Source: a virus
IMG/VR virus record: IMGVR_UViG_3300043399_000826
Location: 1 to 41,066 of that record
Reading direction: 5' to 3' (one strand)
DNA: 41,066 nt
Part shown: positions 1 through 32,494 of the stretch, one piece after another
Layout: each line of letters begins with the position of its first letter
Position numbering within the stretch: position 1 is the stretch's first letter
Program-made: the position numbers and the translations under genes
The notes under the pieces: model-generated
Told to the model about the DNA's origin: nothing
The model's database searches: none
Seen by the model: only the letters and a program-made list of their open reading frames with translations

Positions 1-2000
1 AAATGATATATTGAATTCATCTCCAGTAATGTTAACATTTCTTACATAATATGTAATACCAGGTAATATTCCACCTATTAGATTACTAAATGTTATGGGT
101 GTACCTTCAACAAAACTACCTCCACTAACAGTGACCACAGTCTCGGGTGCTACTGAAAATGAGGTTACACTTAATTGAGAACTACCCACATTTTCTGTAA
201 TTCCACCAACAGTTTGACTTAGCGTTATATAAGGTGCACCCGTACCTATCATACCCAAATCTGTTAACTGCGTTGTCAACGAGACTGTAGGACCATTAGG
301 AGCTTTACTAATAGTAAATCTGTTGCCAGGTAAAATATCTTTTACATAATATGTGGTGCCCAATTCAACTAAACCCAAAGATTCTTGGCTAAAGATTATG
401 GGCATATTTACATACAGTGAGTCAACTGAGTCGCATAACAAGGTATTATCAAGTTGTAGAGTTTCTGTTACATTAACGGTTATTAATCCTAATTCATTTA
501 TATAGTAAAGGCCCTCCGCTAATCCGTGGAAGTCGTCTTTTATAGTTAATGGAAGGTTTACATATAAATTATCTAACCCATTTTCAAAGTCAGATAAAAC
601 AATCCTATTAAGATTATCTATCGTGACTGCTATTTGACTAGACAATAATCCTGATCCTTCTAACGCTACCCCAGTTCCCGTACCTATATCAGTAGTAGCA
701 ACAAAAGTACCTCCCACTTGTGGCACCCCTATATATCCCACAGAATTCCAGTTAGTGGTACCTATAGTATAAATTCTATAAGTATTGCCTGGTATTAACT
801 CACTGACATTAACAAACAAATTACCTATCTGATCGACAAATTCAGTTGATGTATCAAATAATGTAAACTTCTGACCATTAATTTGTCCTGGACTTACAGG
901 TAAAGATATATTGATAACCATATTTGTACCTGAATCAGTTGTGAGTCTTACTACATCCTTTTGGTTAGTTATAATTGATGATCCTACAACATTTGAAGTT
1001 ATATTTAATAATGGGCCAAACAATGATGTTGCTAATTTTATTTGATTAGAAGATAGTATTTCTGAAACATAATAAGTTGTACCTGAAACTACTCCGCCCA
1101 TCGATGGATAGAAGGCTGTACTTACGGCTTTACCTAGACCTTCAACTGCCACACCTGTTTTTAATGGATTTCCAACTGACCTAGCTATAAATGTACTACC
1201 TACTGAATATGTTTCACCTATAGTTCCTGCGATAGAATTCCAGTCAGTATTACCCACTGTATAAATTCTGTAGGGATTTCCTACAATGAATGATCCATCA
1301 TTAACAAATTTTCCTGGTTCAACGACAACAATTGTACTACCTTCCGCATATCCTTCATCTACGGTTCCTGCAATATAATTCCAATCTGTTGTACTTAACT
1401 CGGTAATTCTGTACTCTTTACCAACTTCTAACCAACCTGCAAATGCGATTATATCAGTAACTATTACCGCATCGCCTACAGTAAATCCTACTGTAGAATC
1501 TAAAGTTATAGAATCATTACTGCTATCTGTTTGAGATAAGTTTGTATAAACTGGATTTTCTTCTGTGGACATAGTAAATCTTTGATTATCCACTACAGTT
1601 GTTACATAATAAGGTACATTTTCAATTATTCCACCAAAGGTTTGCCCAGTAAAAAATATAGGTGTACCAATGAATAACGTATTCGTTCCACCTGAACCTG
1701 TATTATATAAAGGTATTGTTATATAATTTGTTCCTGCCTCAGTATTACTTACAGGAAGTATGCCAGGATAATTTAATGTAAGTATTGCAGTATTTGTTTC
1801 ATTACCTGTATATCCTAATAATCCACCTGAGCCCACTGTGCTTGTACTCATAGGCAATATGTCACCGTCTACTGTTGCAGAAATAGTAAACTTAGTATTA
1901 TCTATTACAGATTTTACATAATATGTGGTATTAGTTAGTAAGGTAGTAGTTCCTGGATCCCCACTAAAGTAAATTGGCATACCTATTGTGAAGCCCAAAG
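1..2000 (-). repeat. Degenerate beta-rich repeat modules in the giant protein
   Basis: Two module types recur. One reads G(I/T)TYYV(K/R/S)-x(6-9)-F(T/N)IS, with copies near plus positions 43-60, 350, 1072, 1610 and 1915, and more distant copies near 6145 and 12113. The other reads YRI-x-(T/E)-(V/I/L)-G/S-(N/T)-T-(D/N)-W-N, then a Val-Gly-x-x-F strand, with copies near 1390-1430, 1230-1285 and 705-795. Repeats of both types are common in giant proteins of marine phages (recalled, not searched). Confidence 0.6.
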
Positions 2001-5000
2001 TAGATTGTGATGCATTATCTGTGCCAGTCACTGGTTGTAATGTAATACTGTTATCTAAACTTGAGGTACTAATAATGTTGCGTGTTAGCGAAGACCACTT
2101 CAATACCTGTTCGTTCTCTACATCAGCAATTTCAAATGGTATTCCTCCTCTGCTTGCTAAAATCTTAGCTATATTAGGTTGAGTGCTTTGTAAACTCAGT
2201 GACGAGCTTGCTAATACAGCATTATAATATGAACCTGCAAAGAAAGAACTATAGAATTTACCTGCTTCCCAATCGATTAGATCACTATTATAAGTAGTTC
2301 TGTCAAATCTTAATGTTATGTTGTTTTCTCTTACAGGACTTGCAGTTGTTATACAGCTTGCCTTAGCGCCCAAATTCAATGAATGATTGGCACCTGATCC
2401 TGCATCATAAAACTCTATTCTATCTTGGTTTCTAACAGCATCACTAAAGCTGCGATATAGCCCTACAATATAAGTAGGGGTAGTTTCTAATACGTTTACA
2501 TAATACCATTGATTAGGTTGTAACCCTCCTATAGGAGTTGTGTCTGTTGATACTTTATATTGAATCAAATCCCCAGTAACTAAATCAGGAGCAAATATTT
2601 GTATAGTATTAGAAACAACATTAACCTGATTAGATGTAAATACCGATGATATTGCGCTATCTATTCTAATTTCGGGAGTTACAGCATAACCTCTTCCAGG
2701 ATTTTCAACTTCTATTTGCAGAATAGTATCACCACTCATTACAGCTTTTAATATAGCTGCCTCAAGAGGTGCAGGATAAACATTAGTATCTATATAAGCA
2801 CTTACTTTAGGAGGTTCCGTATATCTTCTGCCACCATCTAATACCACTACTGCGGGTATATTCATGTATATTTGTGTGCCTGGCGAGTGCGTACTTATTT
2901 GTGTTCCGTCTACTCCCCTAAAAATGCCTGTCAATAAATTTAGGTTCCTGTCTACATCAGCGTATGATATTTTCTCACTACCTATAGTTATCACGCCACT
3001 GATAGGGAACCCCGATGCATTATCTACTGTAATGAATGGAGAATTTAACGATATGTATGATGCCAATACTGTTATAGGATAGTTATTCTGACCTACTAGG
3101 CTTAGTCCTCTGTTATTAAACCAATTACTATATTCAGGATTTTCCCAAATAGGGTTATCGGGTGTATATTCGTTAACCTGATTTGGATTAGAATATACTA
3201 ACATTGGAGTAATAAATTGAGTGTAATTGGGATTATAGTCTGCAGGTAAATCAAAGTCAGTAATGGTGCCTCCATATAATTCTTCGCCTGTATACTTAAA
3301 TACAAATTCTTTAATAACTACGTGATAAGGTTTTACTTCGTTTATATATCCTTCTAAGAAATCTTGATTATCGCTTTGGAAAACTTCATAGGGTTTTAAC
3401 TGACGAAGAGTATGGAATACATCAATAAAGGATGTCTTATTTAACCACGGCAAGTAGTTTTGTGATTCTAAACTTTCGTTTTGAATGTATTCAAATAGTG
3501 TAATTAATCCACGATTTCTATAAATCAAAAGCTCATCTATTAGTATTTCTTCATTCAATGCGCGTAAAATATATCTTGTTTCTTCACTTGGATATTGGTC
3601 GTATGGTACTGTATCAAAGAAGTTGTCGCCGAATCCTGTGGATGTTTCTTGATAATCCCATAGACTTGAATTAAATCTTATTGTGCCACCTGAAAGACCT
3701 ATTCTTTCCCAAGTACCTACGTTGTCTACAACCCTATAAATGTATGTTTCACTAGAGCCATTGTTGTTTTTACTCACACGTACAATAGTATTAGGTGCTA
3801 TATTTAAAGTAGATAAATCTGCGTATAAGGGAACTTGTATTACTGACTTAGTTGTATCATCATAACCTGGTGCCCACCAGTTAATGTATTCCCAATAATC
3901 AGGAGTATCATATAATGGTAATGGGGGGCCTTCCCACAGTGGATTTCCTACTGTAGAGGGATTTATATTTCCTACCTTATTCAAAAATGTGCTTGCGGTA
4001 TTTCTAATCTCAGTAATAGGGAACTGAACTAATACGCTGTTTACATATTGGAAATAATTCTTTAATGCACCATAACGGAATAAGAAAAAGCTCTGTCTAG
4101 GTCTTGCTAAAATACCAGTTTGTACTGCTTTAGGTAAGAATGGGTCAGGAACTACTTTACCCATTTCATCAACGCCTGACATACTATCAAGTAGTCTGTC
4201 ATACAATCCTTGAGGCTGTGAACTTAATAAGCTAGGTAATCCAGGTAAGAAATCATCAGCAAAATTAGAACGTATTAAATCGAATTGTGTATGTGCTACT
4301 TCATTAGATGTACCTGTATTAAATCCAATATGTAGTACTGAATCATTAGCGTTTATATAGGCAGCCGCATTATATAATCCATATAGATTAGGTAGCAATG
4401 GTGCAAAGTAGCTTATACCTGAATTTTTAGGATTAGCAATATATGATTGCAGTATAGTATCAGATAATGTTTTACCTTGTTTAGTAAAGATAATGTTCGT
4501 ATTGCGTACCCAGAAATAATATACAGGGGCAAGCTCACCTGAGGGTGTTATATCAAATTGTATGCTATAGCTTTGTATGTCAAATACAGTACCTGGTCCT
4601 GCATATGCTATAGGTGGCACATTAGATGCTACCCAACTGTACACTGCCACATCACTACCTGGGAAAACTATTCCCCATACTTCACTATTGTATGTGTTAT
4701 CATCTTGGTGATAGTTTAAGAACCTGATATTTGTTGTGTCTAACCAAAGTTTACCTACATGTTCTGCACCCCAGAATAGTGTGGAGGTATTATTAACATC
4801 ATCATTAAGTGTGTTATAACCAGCAGGGTCTACATTAGAGATATAGTCTAAATTTTCTCTTGCAACACCCAAAATTTTACCTTGTAGCGGATCTATGTAG
4901 TCCAAATTGTCTAGTGTGTTATTAGTTTCTGCACTGAAAATTTGTATATTTTCAACTTTAGAAATATCCACAATAGCTGAAGATTGACGGTAAATTGTCC

Positions 5001-8000
5001 AGTCAGGTTTACTTACTAGGCTTTCAAAAACATTTACCTTACCATTAATTGTGCCAGGTAGGAATCTAGGAGTGCCTACTATAACTGTGTTTTTATTAAA
5101 GTCTAAAGCTTCGCCATAATATGGTTGTAAGCCATAATCTAATGTTGTATCATTAATACTTTGAGCATATACATACTTACCAATGTTGGCGAAAGATTCG
5201 TTGTAATTAGGCAAGTAATCAAACATGTATACTGCACCTGCATTATTAAACTGATCTATCCATTGCGTTGCATTATTATCAAATACTGTATCATTGTCTA
5301 ATGTATCATCAGTAATAACATCAAATGTCGTAGCAACAAATCTTGGACCTACAGGGGCAGATATTACTAGTGATCCCATTTCACTAAGTGCAATAGTTTT
5401 ACCAAACTGAGTAGGTCCTGTATTATGTGGGCATTTAATTTCTTGTGTTTTTACATAGGTAACTAAGCCCAATTCTTTTAAACCTTCAGGCGCATCAGAA
5501 TCAACATCTACTATAGTTAATTTAGATCCTGCTGTGCCTAAAGTACTGTCGATCAACTGAATAGTTATTGTGCCATTAATATTTGCTACTGCTGACACAT
5601 TTGGTATATTAGCATTAGTTATGGCTATTGCCGTAGACGTAGCATCACCTACTGGTATCTGTACAGCAAATCCGTTTATTAAAATAGTACGTGGAACAGT
5701 TATGGCGACAGATGTATTACCTGTTATGTAACCGTATTTTTCCCCACCATTTGTAAATCTATAAACTGTACCTTCTTGATTGTTACCATCTAAATCAAAT
5801 GGTGCTCCAACTAAAATTTCATTAGCAAAATTATTTGTCGCAGTAGAATATCCAAACTGAGTACCTACTCGTTCATCTTTTCCTGTCGTTAGTTCTTGAG
5901 CTAATCTAAATGTTTGCCCACTTATACTTAATAGATCGCCTGGCACTAAGGGCTTAACAACAATAATTTCGTTGCCTATATAAGCATAATCAGCTTCAGT
6001 AAGCAACTCACCATTAACTGTAACAAAAAGTTCTGTTAACTGTGGATAAGCATTCATTGTTAAACCACTAGTATCACCTAATTCTATTACAGAACCACCC
6101 TTTTCAGCCGATATTGTGAATTTGTCAACACCTATGAATTGTTTTACATAATAAATTGTATTGGGTGCTATATTACTACCTGAATAAGGACTAGTAAAAA
6201 TAATAGGTGTGTCTACTGCCAAACTTCCTGCAGGTATAGGAGATATTGTTAATGTATTATTACTAGATAAAGTAGCTGTTATTATTAGTGGTTCTGTATC
6301 ACTTGGTGACCAAGGTAGAGCAAATGTCTGTATTCCACCTTCAATTGTAGGCAGTTGAATGTTATAGTTCTGAACTATACGGTGGAATACATAAGTTTTA
6401 CCCCAATTCTGAGCAGTAATGCCATCAGCATCAGGAGTGCCTATGATAACGGTATCACCATAATAATCAGTACTTATGCTGTAACCAAAATTGTCAGCGG
6501 CTCCTAAAGTAGGAATCAATAAAGCATCGTTGTTAGTTACATCAGGATCTACATTCGTAACTAACTCGTATTGATTACTGCTTTGACTTAGCCTATAAAC
6601 ATATACTTTAGCTAAGTCAGGTGCCGAAACATAAATCCATTTTTTATCACCTGAAATCGCTACTGATTTGCCCCAATTTGTTGAAGAGCCTACTGCAGGT
6701 AATATTTGGAAAGGTTCTAATCTGTTTACGGCATCGCCTTCATCATTTATAACCACAAATTGATACAAATGAACTCTCGGAGTCCCCGTTGTTTCGCTGA
6801 TAGCAAACAAATTATCCTGGTATGCTATGGTTGTACCAAAGCTTGAACCAAATGTCAACTCTTGTCTTAAATCATATTGGAAACTCAATGTATTATAAAC
6901 ATAACGATATACTTTGCCTAAACCCGCATCGCCTATTAAATAACCTGCTTGAGGTGTATATGCTACAGCACTTCCATAGGTTAAAGAGGGTTGATCTGTA
7001 AATTCTGTTAACGGATTGTAGTTTATAGTTTTACGATATACTGCCCAATCTCCTGTTTGGCTTTCATCGACCCAAACTTTATTATTTGAAAATTCTGCCG
7101 ACAATAATGGGGTATTAGCGATGTCGCTGGGTTTACTTACTCGTTGTGATTGGAATAATAATCCAATACCTTGTCCTGCTATATCTCTAATAGATGGACT
7201 CAAGCTCAAATTAATAATTACTCTGTTTGGATCCACTACTAACGCTACTAAGTAGTAGCCATCAATTTGTTCATTGAAGTTTACAATAGAAAAAATATCA
7301 AATTGTTTTAAATTATGGGGCCTATCAAATGTTATAGTTACTGTCTCGTTCAAATTGTTTTTAGCAAAAAGAACTTGACCTAATGATAATGGAGTCAATA
7401 TTTGCCAGTTACTTAAATAATTGGCTAACCAAATATAATCTCTTACATATAATTGCGACAGGGGTACGATAACTCCATACTTATTTGTACCAGTAGGTAG
7501 ACCTGAGTAAAAATAAGATGATAGTTTTACATCGTCAAGATTCACGTATCCTGCATCCATGTAAACCTGATTAGGAGTATTTACTGGTAGTGTTTGCAGA
7601 ATATTTTTTGTTGTTACAGGCCTACTATAATTGAATAATGAATATAAGGGTACCTCTTGTTGTGATCCAACTGTAGGTGTTCCATCATTTAATGCCACTA
7701 TAGCTGGATTACCAGTTAGAGAACTTTGTGCTAGTTTAAATTCTACGAAATTTCTTGAAAGCGTTCCACCAAATTCTGCTGCCTTTATAGCCCAATTTTC
7801 ATATACATCATAATCTATTCCGCCCTGAGGTAATACGGCACCTCTGAAGGCATCCACTGCATTACGTGTACCTTTATTTCTCATAATGTTTTGATATAGA
7901 TTTACTTGTGTTATATCTGTCAAATCAGCAGTAGACATATAATCACGTGGTCTAAAACCAATCAATGAAAAGCTCAATAGATCAGCATCTTCTTCAAGAT

Positions 8001-11000
8001 TAGCTTTATTTACATCATAATATAATGTGCTTTCAAAGGAACGTGTACTGCTATTAGGCAATAATCCTTTTTGAACTTCGTTATAATCTGTTTCTTTCCA
8101 ATCTGTTTCCTGAAAGGTTTCTCTTGGTTGAATAACTCTTAGCGCAATGTAATATTTGTTTTTAAATGTTACTATAGAACCCGTTGTATATTTTGTAGCC
8201 GGATTCCATTCAATAATATTATCTTGATTTAGTATAAATCCTGCTGCATCAATAGTACCATTCCATTCAGCAGTTTTACTACCACGAACATATATACGGT
8301 TTTGTTTTAATCCTGTAATTAAATTATAGATAGTATCGTTGAATAATGTTGTATTATCGAACACAATACCATGTTCAAAATTGTTGATATTAAATTGTCC
8401 ATACCCTATAGAGTCACCTTCGTTTAAAGGTTGGACAGCAAATAATGTTTCTTCGCGTACAACACTTAAGTCTTTGCTTTGTATAGGATATAGATTCTGA
8501 TTCAATACAAAGTTCTGATTAGTAATTGTTAGCGGCTGAACTATATAACCGTCTTTGTTTATCGTTAAATTGGTAGCGGCAGGATTCAATGTAGTAATAC
8601 TTCCCTCTTCCCATCCTAACTGTGCCCAATATAAAAATTCAGCAACCATTTGTCTCCAAGTTATTTCAAGTCCATTTTCTACTTGGTTGAAAGTCATTCC
8701 TTGTTCTGTAAGATATGCTCCATAACTAGTCAAGAATGTTGCTATTTCCTGCACATTATTAAATTCTGTACCATAAGGAACAAATAATCTTCTATCCGTA
8801 TAGTCGACTGGAACTCTCACAGTTAAGTTTTCTATGTCAATAGTATCGTTGTTCCCATTATTTTCAGGAACTAGAATTGTAAAGTATGCTTTTGTTTGCG
8901 AATTACCATATACAGCAAATCCCTTACTAGTTTTTTGAACTACAACACCGCTATAAATTATTCTATCAAAGGGTTGATTATCATATAACAGTAAAGCATA
9001 GCTTTCATCAGGTATTAACAATGAAGCATTTCTTGAGCTTGGTACGCTTTTTTCAACAAAGAACTTTAATAGATTTTTATCGCTAAAGCCTGCTAATCTA
9101 TATACTAATCTAACGTCTAAGTTATTTAATAATGATGTTATATTAGCTGTGGCGTCGACTCCTAATTGTTTTTCATAGTCTACAATCCAGTTGATGTAAC
9201 TTGTTTTAGCTATACCTGAACCGTATACTTGAATATCTTTTATGATTAGGTGTCTACGATCATCAACCAAGTATTGGTTGAATTCTTTACTGTACTTGTA
9301 ATTATCTAAGTCTACCCCTAAGTTAAAAAACTGTGCTGGCTTAGTCAATGCTAATATCTTCATCAAATCGAACGGCCAAGATGAGCTACGACGATATGAG
9401 AATTCTGCAGGACCACTGTCGCCTACTTTCCAGTTACGCTTGAATAGTTTTCCTGTATAGTTGCCTACGATAGCGTTAAATGGAGACAGTAATTCACCAC
9501 TACTATCTACAGGTAGTACGGTGAGTAATTCTGGGCGAACATATTGAGGTTTTACTACTGGAGCTCCATCATTATAATCTATACCCTGAGCCAAATCATT
9601 CCATAATACTAAGTTGTCGCTTGTATAGGGTGCAGGTCCATACTTATTTTCCCACCAAGTAGGTTGTGTAGTATAACCAATCATTTGCCAAGGTTGACTA
9701 TTTACATTCGTTGTATCAAAATAATATTGATAAATTCCTCTCCAATTACCTTGTTCTATTGGCTGCTTGTTTATTTTGTTTCCACTTTGCCAATAATTGT
9801 ATGTAAAGAAATCGTCAACATTATATGACTGTGATTGAAAATCTATTCTGTTTTGTCCTACCCAATTTAGGAATAGCTCACTATAAATTTGTAGAATTTC
9901 ATTGTTTGTATAATCTGTTTCTCTCCAGAAACCAGGCATAACTTCAGTTTCAGGTACAGGTATTGAAGCACTAATCTTTAAGTTGTTGTATATTCTCTTT
10001 TCAAACTCTAGTAGTGCCTGATCCCTAAAATCCACCAATCTACCTGTGACAGGATCATAACTACCATATAATTTATTATATGATCCGTCGTGTCCTCTAA
10101 TGAAATATGTAGGTATAGTATAATTGTTGTCTAATACTACACTAGGTATAGTAGCAGGATATAAACCTAACTTAGTGGGTGTATTGGGTATGTAACTACC
10201 ATAAGTTTGATTATATTCATTAACTATAATAGTATCTCCCACTTGGAGTGAAACATTTACAGTTAATGAAGGGGCTATATCACTGATTACATAATCTACA
10301 TTTCTTATAAGTTGATTGTATTGTAATAAATCTCCTACTTTTCTTACAAGATAAACTAATATGCCATCATAGTTGGCTTTCTTGAAGTCATAAACTTTAC
10401 TTAAAGGATAAACTGATGTTGTCAAGGAATTTATATTAAAGGAATATGTATTTGATATGTAGGGAGCCTTAGAAGGTAGCATATCACTCCAAAAGAACGG
10501 TGATGTATCCGTCCTTGAAGTAGTAATTTGAGTTAACGCATCATCTAAAATATCTGCAGGGGATTGATAAACACTATATTCTGTTTTGTTTACGACGTCA
10601 ATCAATAATGTTTTAAAGTTAATATAACTTCTGCTATTATATTCTACTGCATTAAAGAAATTATGATTTTGATTTTGATTTCTTAAAAATGTACCTGGCA
10701 GTACTAGTGAGGCGCTATTCTGTATAATTCTATTACCATATGGTACAACATTACCTAAATCACGATAGTTGTTTGATCCAAAAACTTGTCCAACGGCGTT
10801 GGGGTTATTATAAAAAATAGATTGATATTGTCCTCTAATATCGCCCACGTTTACAGTTGTAAGAGTATCATTAAACGGATTATTAGTTAAGTTTATTGGC
10901 ACACTGTAGTAAGCATTACTACTAACTTGGTCACTGATTATCAATATTTGTACTACAGTTTGTTCTATAGGATCCAATCCTTCTGTAATTGTGATTAAGG

Positions 11001-14000
11001 TATTAGTACCTGTGGCAACAGTATATTGACTAGATGTCAGTAATGTGTTATTAGCATAAACTTGAATTATTGGCCAATTTGTATAACTATCGTCTACAGG
11101 TAACACATCGACATCAAATATTGGTGATTGAGTTTCTGGATTAAAATTAAATTCAAAAACTTGATATTGTACGCTAGGGGAAATTGTAGTTTTCCAGCCT
11201 GTTTCTCTAACAAAATTATCTCTCGTAAAGTAATTATAAACATATCCTGTGTTAACGTTCTGAGTGATAGGTTTGTTGTTTAATACATATTCAAAGGTAT
11301 CTGAATTTAGTGATACGTCAAAGCTTATATCACCTATATTATCTATTGAGCTATATCTTAATGGGAAATTAAGTATTATATCATCCAATCCCGTGCCCAC
11401 ACCATAAGCAAATAACTTGCATCCTTTAAAAGAGCTACCTGAATAATAATCTTTATTTCCAAAACTTATACCATTGCTATCAAAAATATCAAACAACGGA
11501 GGTTGGTTTAAAGCAACTTTTTGTTGTGATGTAAACCAGCCATTTTCGTAACGAAAATCTTTACCTTCATTATAAAATCCCCTATAAGCCACAACTTGGT
11601 TATTATCAAGAATATTGCCATCGTTAGCTTCAAATAGTGTAATTACTAAAGGACCACCTGGCACTAATTGAGAAAGGTTAGTTACAAAAATCTTGTTTTT
11701 TAAATTTTCATCTTTAGCGAAAACTATTCTAGCTCCGTCAAATAGCTGAAAATTTTCCAAGTTTGATGTAGACATACTTAAGCAAGCTTCAGAAGTACCT
11801 ACAATAGTATTAAATGCATCCCATCCAACTTGTATTTCAGTTATTTCGTAAACTTCAGGTAACTCAGGTTTGATCCTTTTTATTGAAATTATCTGAGAAT
11901 TATTAGGGAGCATTAATGTGTCGTCTGCTATATATTGACCAGGTTCTGGCGAATTAGTAATATCTGTGCTCTTTACAGTAACAATTGTAGACAGAGGTGT
12001 TACTGTAATGTCCATTGAGGTATTGATACCAGGTAGTACATCAGATTGTAGCATTGCTGGTCCAAATCTTTCCAGTGATATTGTAAATAAAGTACTGCTT
12101 ATAATTTCAGAAATGTAATAAGTAATGCCTGATTGCAGTAAACCAAACTGGGTTACAGGAGAATTTGCAATTTTCATATTAGTGAATGTTACTTCATCAC
12201 CATACTTAAATCCTTCCGTACTCAAACATTCTATTCGGTTACCTACTAGTGAAGTAGATAGGCCTGTTGTATTAATATTACCTGTAATTGGTTCTATTGT
12301 AGCCGTTCCAGGATATGCTGTCCAAGCAGTTATGTCAGGGTAATAAACTGTTTTTCCTGCAGCTTGTTCAAACGCATCTGTTGTTCTAAAATCCATAAAA
12401 TCAATTGGTGCTTTACCCTCTGTACCTGAATTGAAAAGTTTCAGATTAGGATAAAATTCAATTATAGGTCTGATAGCTTTGTTTTGTTTATTAGCATACA
12501 AACTAATTAATGTAGGATCATTGTTGTAACTCGCTGTTGCATTAATAACGTCTATGTGAAACCAACGATTACTTCTTGACCAAGCATTTCTGCTTATTGA
12601 ATTTTTAGCTATCGTAATATAATCAGGTGTTTTAGGTATGAATAGGTTAGCGTCATAGTTTCCAATATCATACGGTGTGTCGTCAAAAGGTAAAAATTCA
12701 GTTTGGGTAAATGTCTGAGGAGCGATAAGGTCTGTAACCGGAATAAGTTCTATAGCAGTGCCTACTCCTTCTACATAGTATTCACCCTCAAGATAAGACT
12801 CGGGTATAACATCTCCCTGAAATACTACTTTTAATCCATTTGTAAATACAACACCATTATTGGCAGTATATGATTTTTTACCTAAAATTTCATTAACATT
12901 TAATGGATTTGTTGCATTGGTATCTATGAGTTTAATTACGCCTACTTTACCCGCAGTAGTACCATCTTGATAATATAAAGTATCTAGCTCTGCGCTTAGA
13001 TAAGGGATTATTTCAATGGCTCCAAAAACATTTTTGAAGAAGTTTCTACCTACCCATTCAGTGCCATATTGTACTGTAATTTTTTCTGCTGTTGGTATTG
13101 CACCAATTTCTTCCAATGTAATAATTGGATCGAGATCCACAAATCCTGCATAGACAATTCTGTAAAAATAATTATTTTCAACTTGGTCCACTCCTGTGTT
13201 ATAAAACATCACAGTTAAATCGTTGAGTGAAGAAATACCATCTATATTGCCAAAGGTTGAAAGTAAAGCATTATTAATTTGATCGTAAGATAATGTAGAT
13301 ACTAAATCTACTGTATTGTTTCCAGGAAGATTGTATTGATCTTGTGCTGTTTTAAAGGGTACGTTAAATGTAACTGTACCTTCACTAGCACCATTATTTT
13401 CTACTCCTAAAACTTCCCTAGTGTTTAAGTTTGATTGTACTGGGCTAGCTCCTGAAACACCTGGAGCGCCTTGAATCCAAAATTGAGAATTTTGATTTAC
13501 GACAAACCGATAACTACCCCCTCTCAACAAAGTAAGAGTAGGATTTAGGCTGCCAGGTAATGATGGATTATCTGTGATATTATAAGCATTAGGTAAACTT
13601 GATACTAAGTATTCTTCTTCATTAAATACTGTGTCTTGAGTAACTATAACTGCTTGTGGCCCATTAGGCAACCAATAATATTGATTATAATTTATGATTT
13701 TATCTAGATCAATAAAGGAATCCCAAGAATAAAACTGGCTATTAAATAGTCTGTTATTATCCTCTGTTAGCCCCCCTTCTAATTTGATAGAGTCTATTAT
13801 CCCAGGATAGCTAATGAAATCTTTAGCGACTGTTTCATTTGCTTTAGTAAAAACAACGCCTGGTTCTAGTTGATAATCTTTTCTAGTTTTAGTGGGTTCT
13901 GTTACATAAAAATCTTTAGGATCAACTCCATAACCAAATTTACTACCCACAAACCCTTGAATAACTTTAGTATTAGGTTGATCTACTATTTGATCTAATG

Positions 14001-14079
14001 TGGCTCGTAAGAATTGAGCGTTAGTGGATGTTTTAAATATTTCTGGAAGAAAATTTAGTGTCCGGATTCTAGTTGCCAT
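1..14079 (-). CDS. Giant virion structural protein downstream of gp6 (partial, C-terminus outside window)
   Basis: The frame opens at the ATG at 14079-14077 and I found no stop in the many lines I read codon by codon to base 1, so at least about 4,693 residues are encoded and the end is missing. The N-terminus (MATRIRTLNFLPEIF..., then NQYYWLPNGP near residue 145) resembles the very long, uncharacterised structural proteins that follow gp6 in marine T4-like phages. Residues about 2330-3010 hold FG-GAP repeats (for example FGYSISTDYYGDTVIIGTP near 2530 and FGKTIALSEMGSLVISAP near 2890), typical of an integrin-alpha-like beta-propeller. NEVKPYHVVIKEF lies near 3585. The last 700 visible residues are beta-rich repeats built round YYV and DWNSIAG-type motifs. 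It starts 27 bases after the gp6 stop, with only a weak ribosome site. A role as a baseplate-attached fibre or adhesion protein is inferred from position and domains. It could also carry gp7-like wedge functions at its N-terminus. Confidence 0.85.
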   Translation of the reverse strand, partial: MATRIRTLNFLPEIFKTSTNAQFLRATLDQIVDQPNTKVIQGFVGSKFGYGVDPKDFYVTEPTKTRKDYQLEPGVVFTKANETVAKDFISYPGIIDSIKLEGGLTEDNNRLFNSQFYSWDSFIDLDKIINYNQYYWLPNGPQAVIVTQDTVFNEEEYLVSSLPNAYNITDNPSLPGSLNPTLTLLRGGSYRFVVNQNSQFWIQGAPGVSGASPVQSNLNTREVLGVENNGASEGTVTFNVPFKTAQDQYNLPGNNTVDLVSTLSYDQINNALLSTFGNIDGISSLNDLTVMFYNTGVDQVENNYFYRIVYAGFVDLDPIITLEEIGAIPTAEKITVQYGTEWVGRNFFKNVFGAIEIIPYLSAELDTLYYQDGTTAGKVGVIKLIDTNATNPLNVNEILGKKSYTANNGVVFTNGLKVVFQGDVIPESYLEGEYYVEGVGTAIELIPVTDLIAPQTFTQTEFLPFDDTPYDIGNYDANLFIPKTPDYITIAKNSISRNAWSRSNRWFHIDVINATASYNNDPTLISLYANKQNKAIRPIIEFYPNLKLFNSGTEGKAPIDFMDFRTTDAFEQAAGKTVYYPDITAWTAYPGTATIEPITGNINTTGLSTSLVGNRIECLSTEGFKYGDEVTFTNMKIANSPVTQFGLLQSGITYYISEIISSTLFTISLERFGPAMLQSDVLPGINTSMDITVTPLSTIVTVKSTDITNSPEPGQYIADDTLMLPNNSQIISIKRIKPELPEVYEITEIQVGWDAFNTIVGTSEACLSMSTSNLENFQLFDGARIVFAKDENLKNKIFVTNLSQLVPGGPLVITLFEANDGNILDNNQVVAYRGFYNEGKDFRYENGWFTSQQKVALNQPPLFDIFDSNGISFGNKDYYSGSSFKGCKLFAYGVGTGLDDIILNFPLRYSSIDNIGDISFDVSLNSDTFEYVLNNKPITQNVNTGYVYNYFTRDNFVRETGWKTTISPSVQYQVFEFNFNPETQSPIFDVDVLPVDDSYTNWPIIQVYANNTLLTSSQYTVATGTNTLITITEGLDPIEQTVVQILIISDQVSSNAYYSVPINLTNNPFNDTLTTVNVGDIRGQYQSIFYNNPNAVGQVFGSNNYRDLGNVVPYGNRIIQNSASLVLPGTFLRNQNQNHNFFNAVEYNSRSYINFKTLLIDVVNKTEYSVYQSPADILDDALTQITTSRTDTSPFFWSDMLPSKAPYISNTYSFNINSLTTSVYPLSKVYDFKKANYDGILVYLVRKVGDLLQYNQLIRNVDYVISDIAPSLTVNVSLQVGDTIIVNEYNQTYGSYIPNTPTKLGLYPATIPSVVLDNNYTIPTYFIRGHDGSYNKLYGSYDPVTGRLVDFRDQALLEFEKRIYNNLKISASIPVPETEVMPGFWRETDYTNNEILQIYSELFLNWVGQNRIDFQSQSYNVDDFFTYNYWQSGNKINKQPIEQGNWRGIYQYYFDTTNVNSQPWQMIGYTTQPTWWENKYGPAPYTSDNLVLWNDLAQGIDYNDGAPVVKPQYVRPELLTVLPVDSSGELLSPFNAIVGNYTGKLFKRNWKVGDSGPAEFSYRRSSSWPFDLMKILALTKPAQFFNLGVDLDNYKYSKEFNQYLVDDRRHLIIKDIQVYGSGIAKTSYINWIVDYEKQLGVDATANITSLLNNLDVRLVYRLAGFSDKNLLKFFVEKSVPSSRNASLLIPDESYALLLYDNQPFDRIIYSGVVVQKTSKGFAVYGNSQTKAYFTILVPENNGNNDTIDIENLTVRVPVDYTDRRLFVPYGTEFNNVQEIATFLTSYGAYLTEQGMTFNQVENGLEITWRQMVAEFLYWAQLGWEEGSITTLNPAATNLTINKDGYIVQPLTITNQNFVLNQNLYPIQSKDLSVVREETLFAVQPLNEGDSIGYGQFNINNFEHGIVFDNTTLFNDTIYNLITGLKQNRIYVRGSKTAEWNGTIDAAGFILNQDNIIEWNPATKYTTGSIVTFKNKYYIALRVIQPRETFQETDWKETDYNEVQKGLLPNSSTRSFESTLYYDVNKANLEEDADLLSFSLIGFRPRDYMSTADLTDITQVNLYQNIMRNKGTRNAVDAFRGAVLPQGGIDYDVYENWAIKAAEFGGTLSRNFVEFKLAQSSLTGNPAIVALNDGTPTVGSQQEVPLYSLFNYSRPVTTKNILQTLPVNTPNQVYMDAGYVNLDDVKLSSYFYSGLPTGTNKYGVIVPLSQLYVRDYIWLANYLSNWQILTPLSLGQVLFAKNNLNETVTITFDRPHNLKQFDIFSIVNFNEQIDGYYLVALVVDPNRVIINLSLSPSIRDIAGQGIGLLFQSQRVSKPSDIANTPLLSAEFSNNKVWVDESQTGDWAVYRKTINYNPLTEFTDQPSLTYGSAVAYTPQAGYLIGDAGLGKVYRYVYNTLSFQYDLRQELTFGSSFGTTIAYQDNLFAISETTGTPRVHLYQFVVINDEGDAVNRLEPFQILPAVGSSTNWGKSVAISGDKKWIYVSAPDLAKVYVYRLSQSSNQYELVTNVDPDVTNNDALLIPTLGAADNFGYSISTDYYGDTVIIGTPDADGITAQNWGKTYVFHRIVQNYNIQLPTIEGGIQTFALPWSPSDTEPLIITATLSSNNTLTISPIPAGSLAVDTPIIFTSPYSGSNIAPNTIYYVKQFIGVDKFTISAEKGGSVIELGDTSGLTMNAYPQLTELFVTVNGELLTEADYAYIGNEIIVVKPLVPGDLLSISGQTFRLAQELTTGKDERVGTQFGYSTATNNFANEILVGAPFDLDGNNQEGTVYRFTNGGEKYGYITGNTSVAITVPRTILINGFAVQIPVGDATSTAIAITNANIPNVSAVANINGTITIQLIDSTLGTAGSKLTIVDVDSDAPEGLKELGLVTYVKTQEIKCPHNTGPTQFGKTIALSEMGSLVISAPVGPRFVATTFDVITDDTLDNDTVFDNNATQWIDQFNNAGAVYMFDYLPNYNESFANIGKYVYAQSINDTTLDYGLQPYYGEALDFNKNTVIVGTPRFLPGTINGKVNVFESLVSKPDWTIYRQSSAIVDISKVENIQIFSAETNNTLDNLDYIDPLQGKILGVARENLDYISNVDPAGYNTLNDDVNNTSTLFWGAEHVGKLWLDTTNIRFLNYHQDDNTYNSEVWGIVFPGSDVAVYSWVASNVPPIAYAGPGTVFDIQSYSIQFDITPSGELAPVYYFWVRNTNIIFTKQGKTLSDTILQSYIANPKNSGISYFAPLLPNLYGLYNAAAYINANDSVLHIGFNTGTSNEVAHTQFDLIRSNFADDFLPGLPSLLSSQPQGLYDRLLDSMSGVDEMGKVVPDPFLPKAVQTGILARPRQSFFLFRYGALKNYFQYVNSVLVQFPITEIRNTASTFLNKVGNINPSTVGNPLWEGPPLPLYDTPDYWEYINWWAPGYDDTTKSVIQVPLYADLSTLNIAPNTIVRVSKNNNGSSETYIYRVVDNVGTWERIGLSGGTIRFNSSLWDYQETSTGFGDNFFDTVPYDQYPSEETRYILRALNEEILIDELLIYRNRGLITLFEYIQNESLESQNYLPWLNKTSFIDVFHTLRQLKPYEVFQSDNQDFLEGYINEVKPYHVVIKEFVFKYTGEELYGGTITDFDLPADYNPNYTQFITPMLVYSNPNQVNEYTPDNPIWENPEYSNWFNNRGLSLVGQNNYPITVLASYISLNSPFITVDNASGFPISGVITIGSEKISYADVDRNLNLLTGIFRGVDGTQISTHSPGTQIYMNIPAVVVLDGGRRYTEPPKVSAYIDTNVYPAPLEAAILKAVMSGDTILQIEVENPGRGYAVTPEIRIDSAISSVFTSNQVNVVSNTIQIFAPDLVTGDLIQYKVSTDTTPIGGLQPNQWYYVNVLETTPTYIVGLYRSFSDAVRNQDRIEFYDAGSGANHSLNLGAKASCITTASPVRENNITLRFDRTTYNSDLIDWEAGKFYSSFFAGSYYNAVLASSSLSLQSTQPNIAKILASRGGIPFEIADVENEQVLKWSSLTRNIISTSSLDNSITLQPVTGTDNASQSTLGFTIGMPIYFSGDPGTTTLLTNTTYYVKSVIDNTKFTISATVDGDILPMSTSTVGSGGLLGYTGNETNTAILTLNYPGILPVSNTEAGTNYITIPLYNTGSGGTNTLFIGTPIFFTGQTFGGIIENVPYYVTTVVDNQRFTMSTEENPVYTNLSQTDSSNDSITLDSTVGFTVGDAVIVTDIIAFAGWLEVGKEYRITELSTTDWNYIAGTVDEGYAEGSTIVVVEPGKFVNDGSFIVGNPYRIYTVGNTDWNSIAGTIGETYSVGSTFIARSVGNPLKTGVAVEGLGKAVSTAFYPSMGGVVSGTTYYVSEILSSNQIKLATSLFGPLLNITSNVVGSSIITNQKDVVRLTTDSGTNMVINISLPVSPGQINGQKFTLFDTSTEFVDQIGNLFVNVSELIPGNTYRIYTIGTTNWNSVGYIGVPQVGGTFVATTDIGTGTGVALEGSGLLSSQIAVTIDNLNRIVLSDFENGLDNLYVNLPLTIKDDFHGLAEGLYYINELGLITVNVTETLQLDNTLLCDSVDSLYVNMPIIFSQESLGLVELGTTYYVKDILPGNRFTISKAPNGPTVSLTTQLTDLGMIGTGAPYITLSQTVGGITENVGSSQLSVTSFSVAPETVVTVSGGSFVEGTPITFSNLIGGILPGITYYVRNVNITGDEFNISF
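5050..7090 (-). repeat. FG-GAP beta-propeller repeats inside the giant protein
   Basis: Within the giant frame, successive segments of about 60-150 residues each carry FG/YG/WG, then S/A-I/V-A/S, then a hydrophobic strand ending in G/S-x-P. Read directly from the sequence: YGSAVAYTPQAGYLIGD, FGTTIAYQDNLFAIS, WGKSVAISGDKKWIYVSAP, FGYSISTDYYGDTVIIGTP, FGYSTATNNFANEILVGAP, FGKTIALSEMGSLVISAP and YGEALDFNKNTVIVGTP. Each is followed by a VY-x-F/Y strand. That makes about seven blades, the number in integrin-alpha propellers. Inserts between blades, around 5900-6350, contain a YYVK-type repeat module. Confidence 0.75.
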
Positions 14080-14106
14080 AAATTATCTCTATTTTATATT
14101 ATATAC

Positions 14107-30285: not shown

Positions 30286-30867
30286 ATGTTTATGCCATCA
30301 CCATCTAAAGCTAAAGGATCAAGTTTTGAACGAGAAGTTGCTACTTTTCTTTCAAAACTATACAACGAAAGCTTCATCCGAGCACCTGGCTCGGGTGCGT
30401 ATGTTGGTGGTAAAAATCAGGCTCGCAAAGAGTTTCTTCACGAGGGACAAATCAGATCCTTCAAGGGTGACATTGTTCCTGGTCAAAGCTTTACTAAATT
30501 GAACGTCGAATGCAAGTCATACGCTGACTTCCCCTTTCATCAACTTTATACAGGTGACTGTAAGTTGTTGGAGGGTTGGTTAGATCAACTTATGGATGTT
30601 GCTGAACAAGATGATGTAAATGTCTTGTTCATGAAGTTCAATAGGAAAGGTAGATTCGTAGTAGTACAAAGTAGCCTAACGTGGGGTGCTGATAACTTCA
30701 CTTACTACACGTCCAAATCACACGGTGATTGGATTATTATCAATTTTGAAAACTTTTTTAATTCAAACAGAGACCTTCTCAAATCATATTCTTCTGGTAT
30801 ATCAACAGACACCATGTCACGGACTATTCAAAACAAATCAACAGAGACCATCTCAAGGACTATTTAG
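30286..30867 (+). CDS. PDDEXK-type nuclease (candidate Holliday-junction resolvase)
   Basis: A 193-residue protein with a PDDEXK nuclease pattern: SSFEREVATFLSKL (Glu15/Glu17) on the first helix, RAPGSGAYVGGKNQ, GDIVP with Asp62, and VECKSYADFPF with Glu75-x-Lys77. This is the arrangement of Hjc-like resolvases and related phage nucleases. In marine T4-like phages such a gene often sits near gp46, and it would cut branched DNA made during recombination and packaging. The last 40 residues contain two similar segments (STDTMSRTIQ, STETISRTI) encoded by direct DNA repeats. An alternative start two codons downstream (MPSPSKAKG) is equally possible. Branched-DNA specificity is inferred, not visible. 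Confidence 0.7.
   Translation: MFMPSPSKAKGSSFEREVATFLSKLYNESFIRAPGSGAYVGGKNQARKEFLHEGQIRSFKGDIVPGQSFTKLNVECKSYADFPFHQLYTGDCKLLEGWLDQLMDVAEQDDVNVLFMKFNRKGRFVVVQSSLTWGADNFTYYTSKSHGDWIIINFENFFNSNRDLLKSYSSGISTDTMSRTIQNKSTETISRTI
30762..30864 (+). repeat. Three direct repeats at the end of the nuclease gene
   Basis: Copies at 30801-30828 and 30837-30864 are 28-mers differing at 4 positions, sharing ATCAACAGA, ACCAT and GGACTATT blocks. A weaker copy lies at 30762-30790. The 36-39 base period places them directly upstream of the TATAAT at 30870. Confidence 0.8.
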
Positions 30868-30869
30868 GG

Positions 30870-30875
30870 TATAAT
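30870..30875 (+). promoter_or_regulatory. Candidate -10 box for the structured RNA
   Basis: TATAAT lies 2 bases after the nuclease stop codon. A start near 30882 would place the 5' end just before the first helix at 30886. No clear -35 is seen; the direct repeats occupy that position instead. Confidence 0.45.
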
Positions 30876-31199
30876 CAATTTGTTTGGTCGGGGTTGCTCG
30901 ACCCTCCTTGAGCTAGCCGAGGTAAGGCTCGTTGCCAGCGGATCTGGAGAAGGCGTGGGTATAGTGATATACTCACGGGAACACCGACAGGGCACTCGAC
31001 ATAGATTGCGAACCCTGAGCAAGCTTATAGCTATTTTGTCTTGACGCTATAAGATGCGCGTTGCGGAGGCGGACGTTTGTTTAAAAGCACGAACTAGTCT
31101 CAACTACAGCCCAGTAATACCTTACAGAGCAACCGGTGGCGTTCATTAGCGGAACAGGCTGAGTGATCGTGGGACAGACAACAGAAGGATGACGGGCCA

Positions 31200-31266
31200 G
31201 CAATGGTGTATCCCTGGTAGTGCTGATCCAGCACTACCATGGCTTCAAGGCAGCAATGGTATCCCA
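31200..31266 (+). repeat. Repeated segment flanking a hairpin in the structured RNA
   Basis: AGCAATGGTGTATCCC (from 31199) and AGCAATGGTATCCC (from 31252) flank the perfect 10-bp hairpin at 31215-31239. The repeat could form equivalent loops or alternative pairings within the RNA. Confidence 0.6.
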
Positions 31267-31381
31267 GAAGTATAGTTACAGGAAACAATCTTTTAGAATA
31301 AAAACAATACCGAATTTTATGTGTAGCGTAAGCGGAACATAAAATTCAGGTATAGATGAGCGTAGCTCATCTTTAAAAGGA

Positions 31382-31405
31382 AATCCTCTAATAGCTTAGA
31401 GGATT
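31382..31405. terminator. Perfect 10-bp stem-loop, possible terminator
   Basis: AATCCTCTAA pairs with TTAGAGGATT round a TAGC loop. On the minus strand the stem is followed by TCCTTTT, so it could end gp26-gp51 transcription before it runs antisense to the RNA. On the plus strand there is no U-tract, and it may instead be the last RNA helix. Confidence 0.4.
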
Positions 31406-31439
31406 GTTAGTTAGGATAAATGAATAGGTACGGATAAAA

Positions 31440-31616
31440 TTAGAAGAACGGCAACTTAGTATTCTTAGTAGTTTCCATATTGGATTCAATGATTTCACTA
31501 ATCATTTTTCTTTCTTCTAATGACATATTAAGGACGTCTTCATATGAAACTCCGCCCCTCATGTACCATGAAAAGCTGAATGCCTGCTTTTTAATCTCAC
31601 GGCATTCAACTTCCAT
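31440..31616 (-). CDS. 51: Baseplate hub assembly protein gp51 (short form)
   Basis: A 58-residue frame from the only ATG available, ending in ETTKNTKLPFF. FSFSWYMRGGVSYEDVLNMS and the C-terminal LPFF pattern match the short gp51 proteins of marine T4-like phages as I remember them; gp51 is needed to assemble the T4 hub. The coding-like sequence continues upstream of the ATG for 18 codons (reading ...LDHEGVAKLIKD) with no ATG, GTG or TTG, and there is no Shine-Dalgarno before the ATG. This upstream part is reached exactly by a -1 shift on the slippery sequence at the end of gp26, which would give a gp26-gp51 fusion of about 351 residues. Independent initiation at 31616 remains possible. Confidence 0.75.
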   Translation of the reverse strand: MEVECREIKKQAFSFSWYMRGGVSYEDVLNMSLEERKMISEIIESNMETTKNTKLPFF

Positions 31617-31663: not shown

Positions 31664-32494
31664 TTAGCCGAAAAAATCAGTAGCGTTTATTACTATGTCC
31701 TGATCGTACTTGTTTTGGCATCCTGGGCAAACTACTTTCAGTGGCTTCATTGTGGTTGAATTTTTAAGTTCTGTACCATAATCTCTTATAGTCAAGTATG
31801 TTTTTTTGTCACAATTCTTTAAGAAGTCTAATATATAAGAAGGTTCTGATACTATAGTATCGGGTGTTTGAATGTATTCTATAGTTTTGGTTATTACATT
31901 CATAGTTAAATCAGTAATCATCTTTAAAGCTTCTTGACCCTTCTTAGACTTTTCAACGTCGTCCTTTTCTAATTCTAAATTAGAAAATACTCTTTGCATT
32001 TCAAATTGGCTTAGATTGATAGCATTCATTTCTTTATAAGTTAATGGTCTATATTTTATTTTAAGATCATTTACTTCTAAAGGAGTATTATAATCGGGCT
32101 TGTTGATGTTTGATAATAAAGATACCAAATTTACAGTATATGTAGCTACTTCTTCGCATTTTGGACACTGTGAATTTATTTCGTAATCGTTGCCTTGAGT
32201 GGCGGTTTTAATACCAATTAATATAGCATCAAAATCTATACTGTTGATTCCATAAGGATTCTTAATACTAGGTACACAACTTTTTATAAGTTCTGAAATG
32301 GCGTCACCGTTGAATAAAGCATCAGGGGTGCGGGTTATTATTTCATCAATGGCAGTCATAGGATAAACAGGCAATTCACCATTGTCAGGCATATCTACTA
32401 TGTCAGGTGTATATGATTCTCCGCCACTGGGAAGTTTCAAGTAAATTGCAGGTCTTCTAAAATATTGACGCAGTGGGTTGTTGTCGTTTGTCAT
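31664..32494 (-). CDS. 26: Baseplate hub protein gp26
   Basis: A 276-residue member of the T4 gp26 family (T4: 208 residues). The conserved stretch KIKYRPLTYKEMNAINLSQF lies at about 146-165. A four-cysteine metal site is likely, with CPKC at 110-113 and CPGC at 256-259. gp26 is required for hub assembly in T4. Here it is directly followed by gp51 and sits next to the tape-measure gene, the position held by tail assembly chaperones in other tailed phages. The ATG follows AAGGAA at good spacing. The last codons GAT TTT TTC GGC TAA contain a -1 slippery heptamer. Confidence 0.9.
   Translation of the reverse strand: MTNDNNPLRQYFRRPAIYLKLPSGGESYTPDIVDMPDNGELPVYPMTAIDEIITRTPDALFNGDAISELIKSCVPSIKNPYGINSIDFDAILIGIKTATQGNDYEINSQCPKCEEVATYTVNLVSLLSNINKPDYNTPLEVNDLKIKYRPLTYKEMNAINLSQFEMQRVFSNLELEKDDVEKSKKGQEALKMITDLTMNVITKTIEYIQTPDTIVSEPSYILDFLKNCDKKTYLTIRDYGTELKNSTTMKPLKVVCPGCQNKYDQDIVINATDFFG
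31670..31676 (-). promoter_or_regulatory. Candidate -1 ribosomal frameshift site between gp26 and gp51
   Basis: The minus strand reads T TTT TTC in the gp26 frame, two codons before its stop, a classical X XXY YYZ heptamer. A -1 shift continues as CGG CTA AAG into gp51. Downstream, GGCTA at 31665-31669 can pair with TAGCC at 31632-31636, or AAGCTT at 31659-31664 with AAGCTT at 31626-31631, which could provide a stimulatory structure. Confidence 0.6.

Follow-up and report, generated by a model that had tools for sequence, protein, structure and literature searches.

What does a phage with T4-type genes keep in a gap of 572 nt (30868–31439) between the stop of a nuclease gene (30867) and a convergent small ORF (31440)? 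The window analysed here, i.e. the whole stretch of 41,066 nucleotides from IMG/VR virus record IMGVR_UViG_3300043399_000826, has been the subject of a preliminary description, which read the gap as a large, ornate structured RNA lacking a credible ORF, either related to the phage RNAs GOLLD and ROOL or forming a new class. The stated size of the gap is right, and its ORFs are not conserved among homologues, in which the longest ATG ORFs range from 12 to 109 amino acids and are scattered over both strands. The gap is indeed richer in GC (about 41–42%) than most of the left part of the window (34–37%), but some parts of the right half are as GC-rich. Neither tRNA nor tmRNA was found in the window. 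Positions 1–14106 hold no closed ORF of at least 100 amino acids and probably belong to a very long gene that runs off the left end.

The + strand of the gap encodes a conserved, structured RNA that comprises a core (30880–31262) and two 3′ hairpins, and we consider it practically certain that this conserved RNA is functional. Homologues were sampled from collections of metagenomic contigs in two ways. Viral contigs chosen for their relatives of the nuclease and the baseplate hub protein provided 112 loci; the RNA query matches 97 of them, in nearly every case immediately downstream of the nuclease. A scan for the exact pattern TTWYAGNGCAACCGGTNGC, which does not depend on neighbouring genes, provided at least 120 stretches, 118 of which hold the RNA core among the matches listed. 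Altogether at least 217 homologous loci were detected by nhmmer and blastn in these overlapping sets, on contigs of up to 525 kb; this number includes repeated contigs (91 sequences are distinct at 95%) and a few loci (L070–L074) that match the 5′ domain only and represent a second RNA, type II (see below), the RNA of the window being type I.

Among the matches listed, the nuclease lies upstream in 196 loci (three have no recognisable nuclease), and the convergent hub gene lies downstream in 202, which is every locus long enough to judge; no other genomic context was seen among the at least 217 loci listed. In nearly all type I loci, 0–163 nt separate the nuclease stop from the start of the RNA, and ten long contigs, one of them of 525 kb, carry one significant copy each. 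The RNA loci are thus compatible with a single position, preceded by the PDDEXK/RusA-like nuclease and followed by the convergent gene of the baseplate hub. When types I, II and III were searched at nucleotide level against 50,697 isolated phages, nothing meaningful and no cultured representative came up. The core motif gave 75 matches in 84,980 genomes of bacteria and archaea, none of them with the full RNA core, and a literature search with the terms tried found no description of this RNA. In the cultured jumbo phages PA5oct (L116, 6478–7992) and Phosso (L118, 6986–8001), the corresponding place is taken by gaps poor in genes, with strongly folding stretches and hairpins and with no HMM or covariance-model similarity to the RNA; these gaps may hold further divergent RNAs.

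Covariation was assessed with a home-made G-test with APC and a pair counter, in place of the R-scape analysis on whose outcome the preliminary description had let its reading depend, and the signal is clear. A 53-pair model gives 94.6% canonical cells on alignment A1 (64 diverse sequences), with 44 pairs changed on both sides, as compared to 32–40% canonical cells if partners are slid by 1–3 columns. When all 82,621 column pairs of 91 sequences are ranked, 19 of the top 20 and 35 of the top 40 fall inside the model, against a background of 0.3%. The fold (Table 1) is under selection, and its compact core is tied by two pseudoknots, features absent from the preliminary description. H7 adjoins H6, and both together close the core. 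The loop of H5, a hairpin that includes 8 bp at 31024–31053, supplies one strand of pseudoknot A, which is canonical in 64 of 64 sequences (100%) with compensatory change at 5 of 5 pairs; pseudoknot B is 96.4% canonical, with compensatory change at 4 of 4 pairs. The value of only 71% paired cells for helix H8 is due to a slip of one base in the automatic alignment. Of 56 homologues, 22 have a GNRA loop on H3. Covariation also links position 31121 to the 30982/31138 pair, and the three bases may form a base triple. In four loci (L100, L140, L197, L216) an extra hairpin of the GAAGG..CCUUC type is inserted past the 5′ clamp of the type I RNA.

Table 1. Features of the RNA locus and of the flanking genes (window positions).
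Feature	Position	Strand	Basis
Nuclease, PDDEXK_15 / RusA-like, co-directional, upstream of the RNA	30286–30867	+	Pfam PF24608 (E 2.6e-23), phrog_244, synteny
Conserved RNA body, type I	30880–31262	+	nhmmer/blastn homologues, alignments A1 and A2
H1, 5′ hairpin, 7 bp	30886–30903	+	Covariation, z 11–17
H2, clamp CUCC (30904–30907) with GGAG (30946–30949) around a variable hairpin	30904–30949	+	
H3, hairpin, 10 bp, GUGA loop	30954–30977	+	Covariation
H7, 30982–30986 with 31134–31138, ACCG/CGGU	within 30982–31138	+	97.8% of cells paired
H4, hairpin with asymmetric internal loop	30988–31017	+	100% of cells paired, 6 of 8 pairs changed on both sides
H5, hairpin	31020–31056	+	98.7% paired, 10 of 10 pairs changed on both sides
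Pseudoknot A, 31036–31040 with 31177–31181	31036–31181	+	z 7–24
H6, 31060–31065 with 31128–31133, GUUGC/GCAAC	within 30982–31138	+	94.5% of cells paired
H8, hairpin of variable length	31066–31101	+	GAAG..CUUC / GAG..CUC / GAGG..CCUC alternation in A1
Pseudoknot B, 31110–31113 with 31170–31173	31110–31173	+	z up to 22.8
Near-invariant single strand, consensus AAACUUUACAG	31118–31128	+	Alignment A1
H10, hairpin	31140–31169	+	90.8% paired, 10 of 11 pairs changed on both sides
H11, long hairpin, UGGUAGUGCU..AGCACUACCA	31215–31239	+	Fold and alignment
3′ tail hairpin 1, 16 bp, inner GUAA loop	31307–31353	+	Fold, alignment
3′ tail hairpin 2, 8 bp, GUA triloop	31354–31372	+	
10-bp hairpin	31382–31405	−	Terminator score on the − strand; absent from the conserved set
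Small ORF (58 aa), convergent	31440–31616	−	Kept beside the RNA
T4-type baseplate hub gene, convergent	31664–32494	−	PF12322, phrog_150

Folding energies are low for both strands of the gap (−188.8 kcal/mol and z −4.4 for the + strand, z −4.7 for the − strand; 0 of 100 shuffles as good in either case). The RNA is assigned to the + strand since G-U cells outnumber A-C cells in the alignment by 117 to 15. The hairpins listed in the preliminary description are all present, namely those of 10 bp with GUGA loop, of 16 bp with inner GUAA loop, the pair of 8 bp and that of 10 bp at 31382–31405. While both 10-bp hairpins exist, the one at 31382–31405 lies outside the set conserved with the RNA and probably terminates the hub operon, which runs leftward. 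The TATAAT box at 30870 that had been noted just before the first helix is private to the window; no conserved promoter motif was found upstream of the RNA among the homologues, and a promoter scan gave no excess over shuffles. At the other end, triloop hairpins of the kind of tail hairpin 2 are found no farther than 250 nt from the RNA in 41 of 63 loci, as against only five occurrences elsewhere in 640 kb. Being concentrated 3′ of the RNA, they belong to the RNA locus, and an interpretation of the tail hairpins as generic terminator palindromes was discarded on the same grounds.

The same slot holds other RNAs in related phages. More distant phages have a gap of roughly 400–650 nt at this place, and many of these gaps contain the type II RNA, which displays covariation of its own. 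H1 is common to both types: an HMM of the type I 5′ domain gives matches in 18 of the 124 type II loci, each with the expected strand and position, and none elsewhere in these loci. The H2 clamp recurs in type II as a compensatory CCCA/UUGGG. In type II genomes the RNA lies upstream of the small ORF and the hub gene, even where extra genes stand between RNA and nuclease.

In the most distant phages of the slot (L075, L082, L083, L442–L453), the Rfam family RF01718 (Polynucleobacter-1) is found at 87–115 bits right after the homologous nuclease and before the hub gene; the genomic slot of the window RNA is thus that of RF01718 in related phages. The type II core lies downstream of the RF01718 match in these phages, and because the match continues into this core, RF01718 represents the 5′ part, about a third, of a larger RNA. 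Polynucleobacter-1 forms the 5′ part of a phage RNA of about 450 nt at L075:1557–1701, L082:6526–6660, L083:6615–6759 and L452:4499–4640. The 141-nt covariance model of RF01718 gives no match to the window at E up to 10, and the link between type I and RF01718 runs only via type II, through the 5′ domain shared by types I and II and the core shared by type II and the RF01718-bearing RNAs. Polynucleobacter-1 resembles the window RNA in its slot and may, by way of type II, be related to it, but its Rfam model covers a 5′ part only, and the two-pseudoknot core of type I lies outside that model. The motif was originally listed as probably RNA and probably cis-regulatory (Weinberg 2010; PMC2864571). 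In phages, a role as 5′ leader does not fit wherever the following gene is convergent. RF01718 scores above cut-off in 3 of 399 genomes of the order holding Burkholderiales; in the one case examined (L492, a chromosome of this order, about 7812–7945), Polynucleobacter-1 lies beside integrase-like genes and a DUF6641 gene, which suggests that it sits on a mobile island. As a tentative and broader hypothesis, the window RNA may be one branch of an old jumbo-phage superfamily bound to one locus (type I, type II and an RF01718-bearing type III), acting as an RNA machine, i.e. a self-assembling particle or a catalyst, that would differ from known RNAs as much as GOLLD and ROOL did on their discovery.

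Judged from sequence, the locus is best explained as a phage gene, present in one copy, whose product is a large non-coding RNA with a body of about 380 nt, or about 490 nt including the 3′ hairpins. The gene is placed between recombination and structural genes, and its product is not a leader of the downstream gene, because the latter is convergent. Phage RNAs with structural roles have precedents. The pRNA of phi29, of about 174 nt, uses loop-loop pairing for assembly and serves a phi29-type packaging motor; the window RNA may resemble it as a phage structural RNA with loop-loop pairing, but differs in size and fold and shows no link to packaging. GOLLD, whose function is unknown, is a large structured RNA of phages that contains kissing-loop or pseudoknot pairs, ROOL is a large phage RNA with several pseudoknots and no known protein partner, and both are described as frequent near tRNA islands and as forming RNA-only cages (PMC12286853). 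We give about even chances to the window RNA being a stable structural RNA that acts in trans, comparable in spirit to GOLLD and ROOL but of an unrelated family. Such an RNA would form the 3′ end of the transcript of the recombination genes gp47, gp46 and nuclease, in line with the missing conserved promoter, would be released or protected by its 3′ hairpins, and would act in trans as a protein scaffold or by RNA-RNA assembly, as proposed for GOLLD and ROOL. On the other hand, the pseudoknots could equally be compatible with a catalytic or a 3′-UTR role, and type I could be tied so strictly to one operon because it acts in cis.

The 3′-UTR role would make the RNA a cis-acting element of the recombination operon, which blocks 3′ exonucleases or regulates the stability of the gp46/47/nuclease mRNA, with the 3′ hairpins ending transcription between the convergent operons. 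The short distance to the nuclease stop, the absence of promoter conservation at the start of the RNA, the convergent junction and the tail hairpins specific to the locus all agree with this model, but two pseudoknots and near-invariant single strands do not, and type II RNA is in some genomes separated from the nuclease by further genes and a distance of kilobases. We know of no 3′ stabiliser that approaches the complexity of the window RNA, and overall this explanation appears rather unlikely.

A ribozyme or RNP enzyme core, in which nested helices, two pseudoknots and the possible base triple form an active site, is improbable. The double-pseudoknot topology, the near-invariant AAACUUUACAG strand and a position covarying with a base pair would suit an active site; however, no ribozyme, intron or RNase P model matches even at relaxed thresholds, and the RNA is intergenic, with no flanking exon or intron signal. 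A group I-like order of strands was also weighed and rejected, since it offers no counterpart to H6 and since none of the models gave a match. A similarly low probability is assigned to a regulatory trans RNA acting as sponge, decoy or antisense on host or phage mRNAs or on ribosomes. Although H2 contains CCUCCUU, similar to the anti-Shine-Dalgarno end of 16S rRNA, the clamp changes by compensation in type II, i.e. pairing is kept and not sequence, by which an anti-Shine-Dalgarno role of H2 was dismissed, and so elaborate a fold is untypical of sponges.

Rfam yields no significant match for the window, with nothing at gathering thresholds and chance-level matches only at relaxed ones, and models of tmRNA, RNase P and group I or II introns do not match there, as the preliminary description had anticipated. 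Of its two suggestions regarding GOLLD and ROOL, the new class stands and membership does not: a divergent GOLLD or ROOL is very improbable, despite phage origin, size class, pseudoknots and GNRA loops, as both covariance models miss the type I RNA in the window and in nine other contigs of the lineage (ROOL, RF03087, is absent from the window, its best score in 10 records being 15 bits at an unrelated place), and as 35 type I loci of about 12–15 kb contain no tRNA near the RNA. Moreover, the 364-kb phage G002 (IMGVR_UViG_3300043418_000114; L493) carries a true GOLLD (RF02032) at 227205–227668 with 203.5 bits, within an island of 21 tRNAs that served as positive control for the tRNA search, and a type I RNA at 293629–293835, 66 kb away; the presence of both in one genome marks them as distinct, and simple membership is refuted. 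The window RNA is also shorter than GOLLD members of more than 800 nt.

To our knowledge, elaborately folded large RNAs are rare, and those that are understood are ribozymes, parts of RNPs or self-assembling particles. The window RNA is new: it matches no Rfam family, it occurs in more than 100 environmental phage contigs of up to 525 kb, and the known RNA of its slot is the orphan Polynucleobacter-1 of 2010, in relatives. Placing this orphan motif inside a larger phage RNA makes its function testable, and the 64-sequence alignment with its pseudoknot model is directly usable for structure work. Being single-copy and locked to one locus, the RNA is probably important to these phages.
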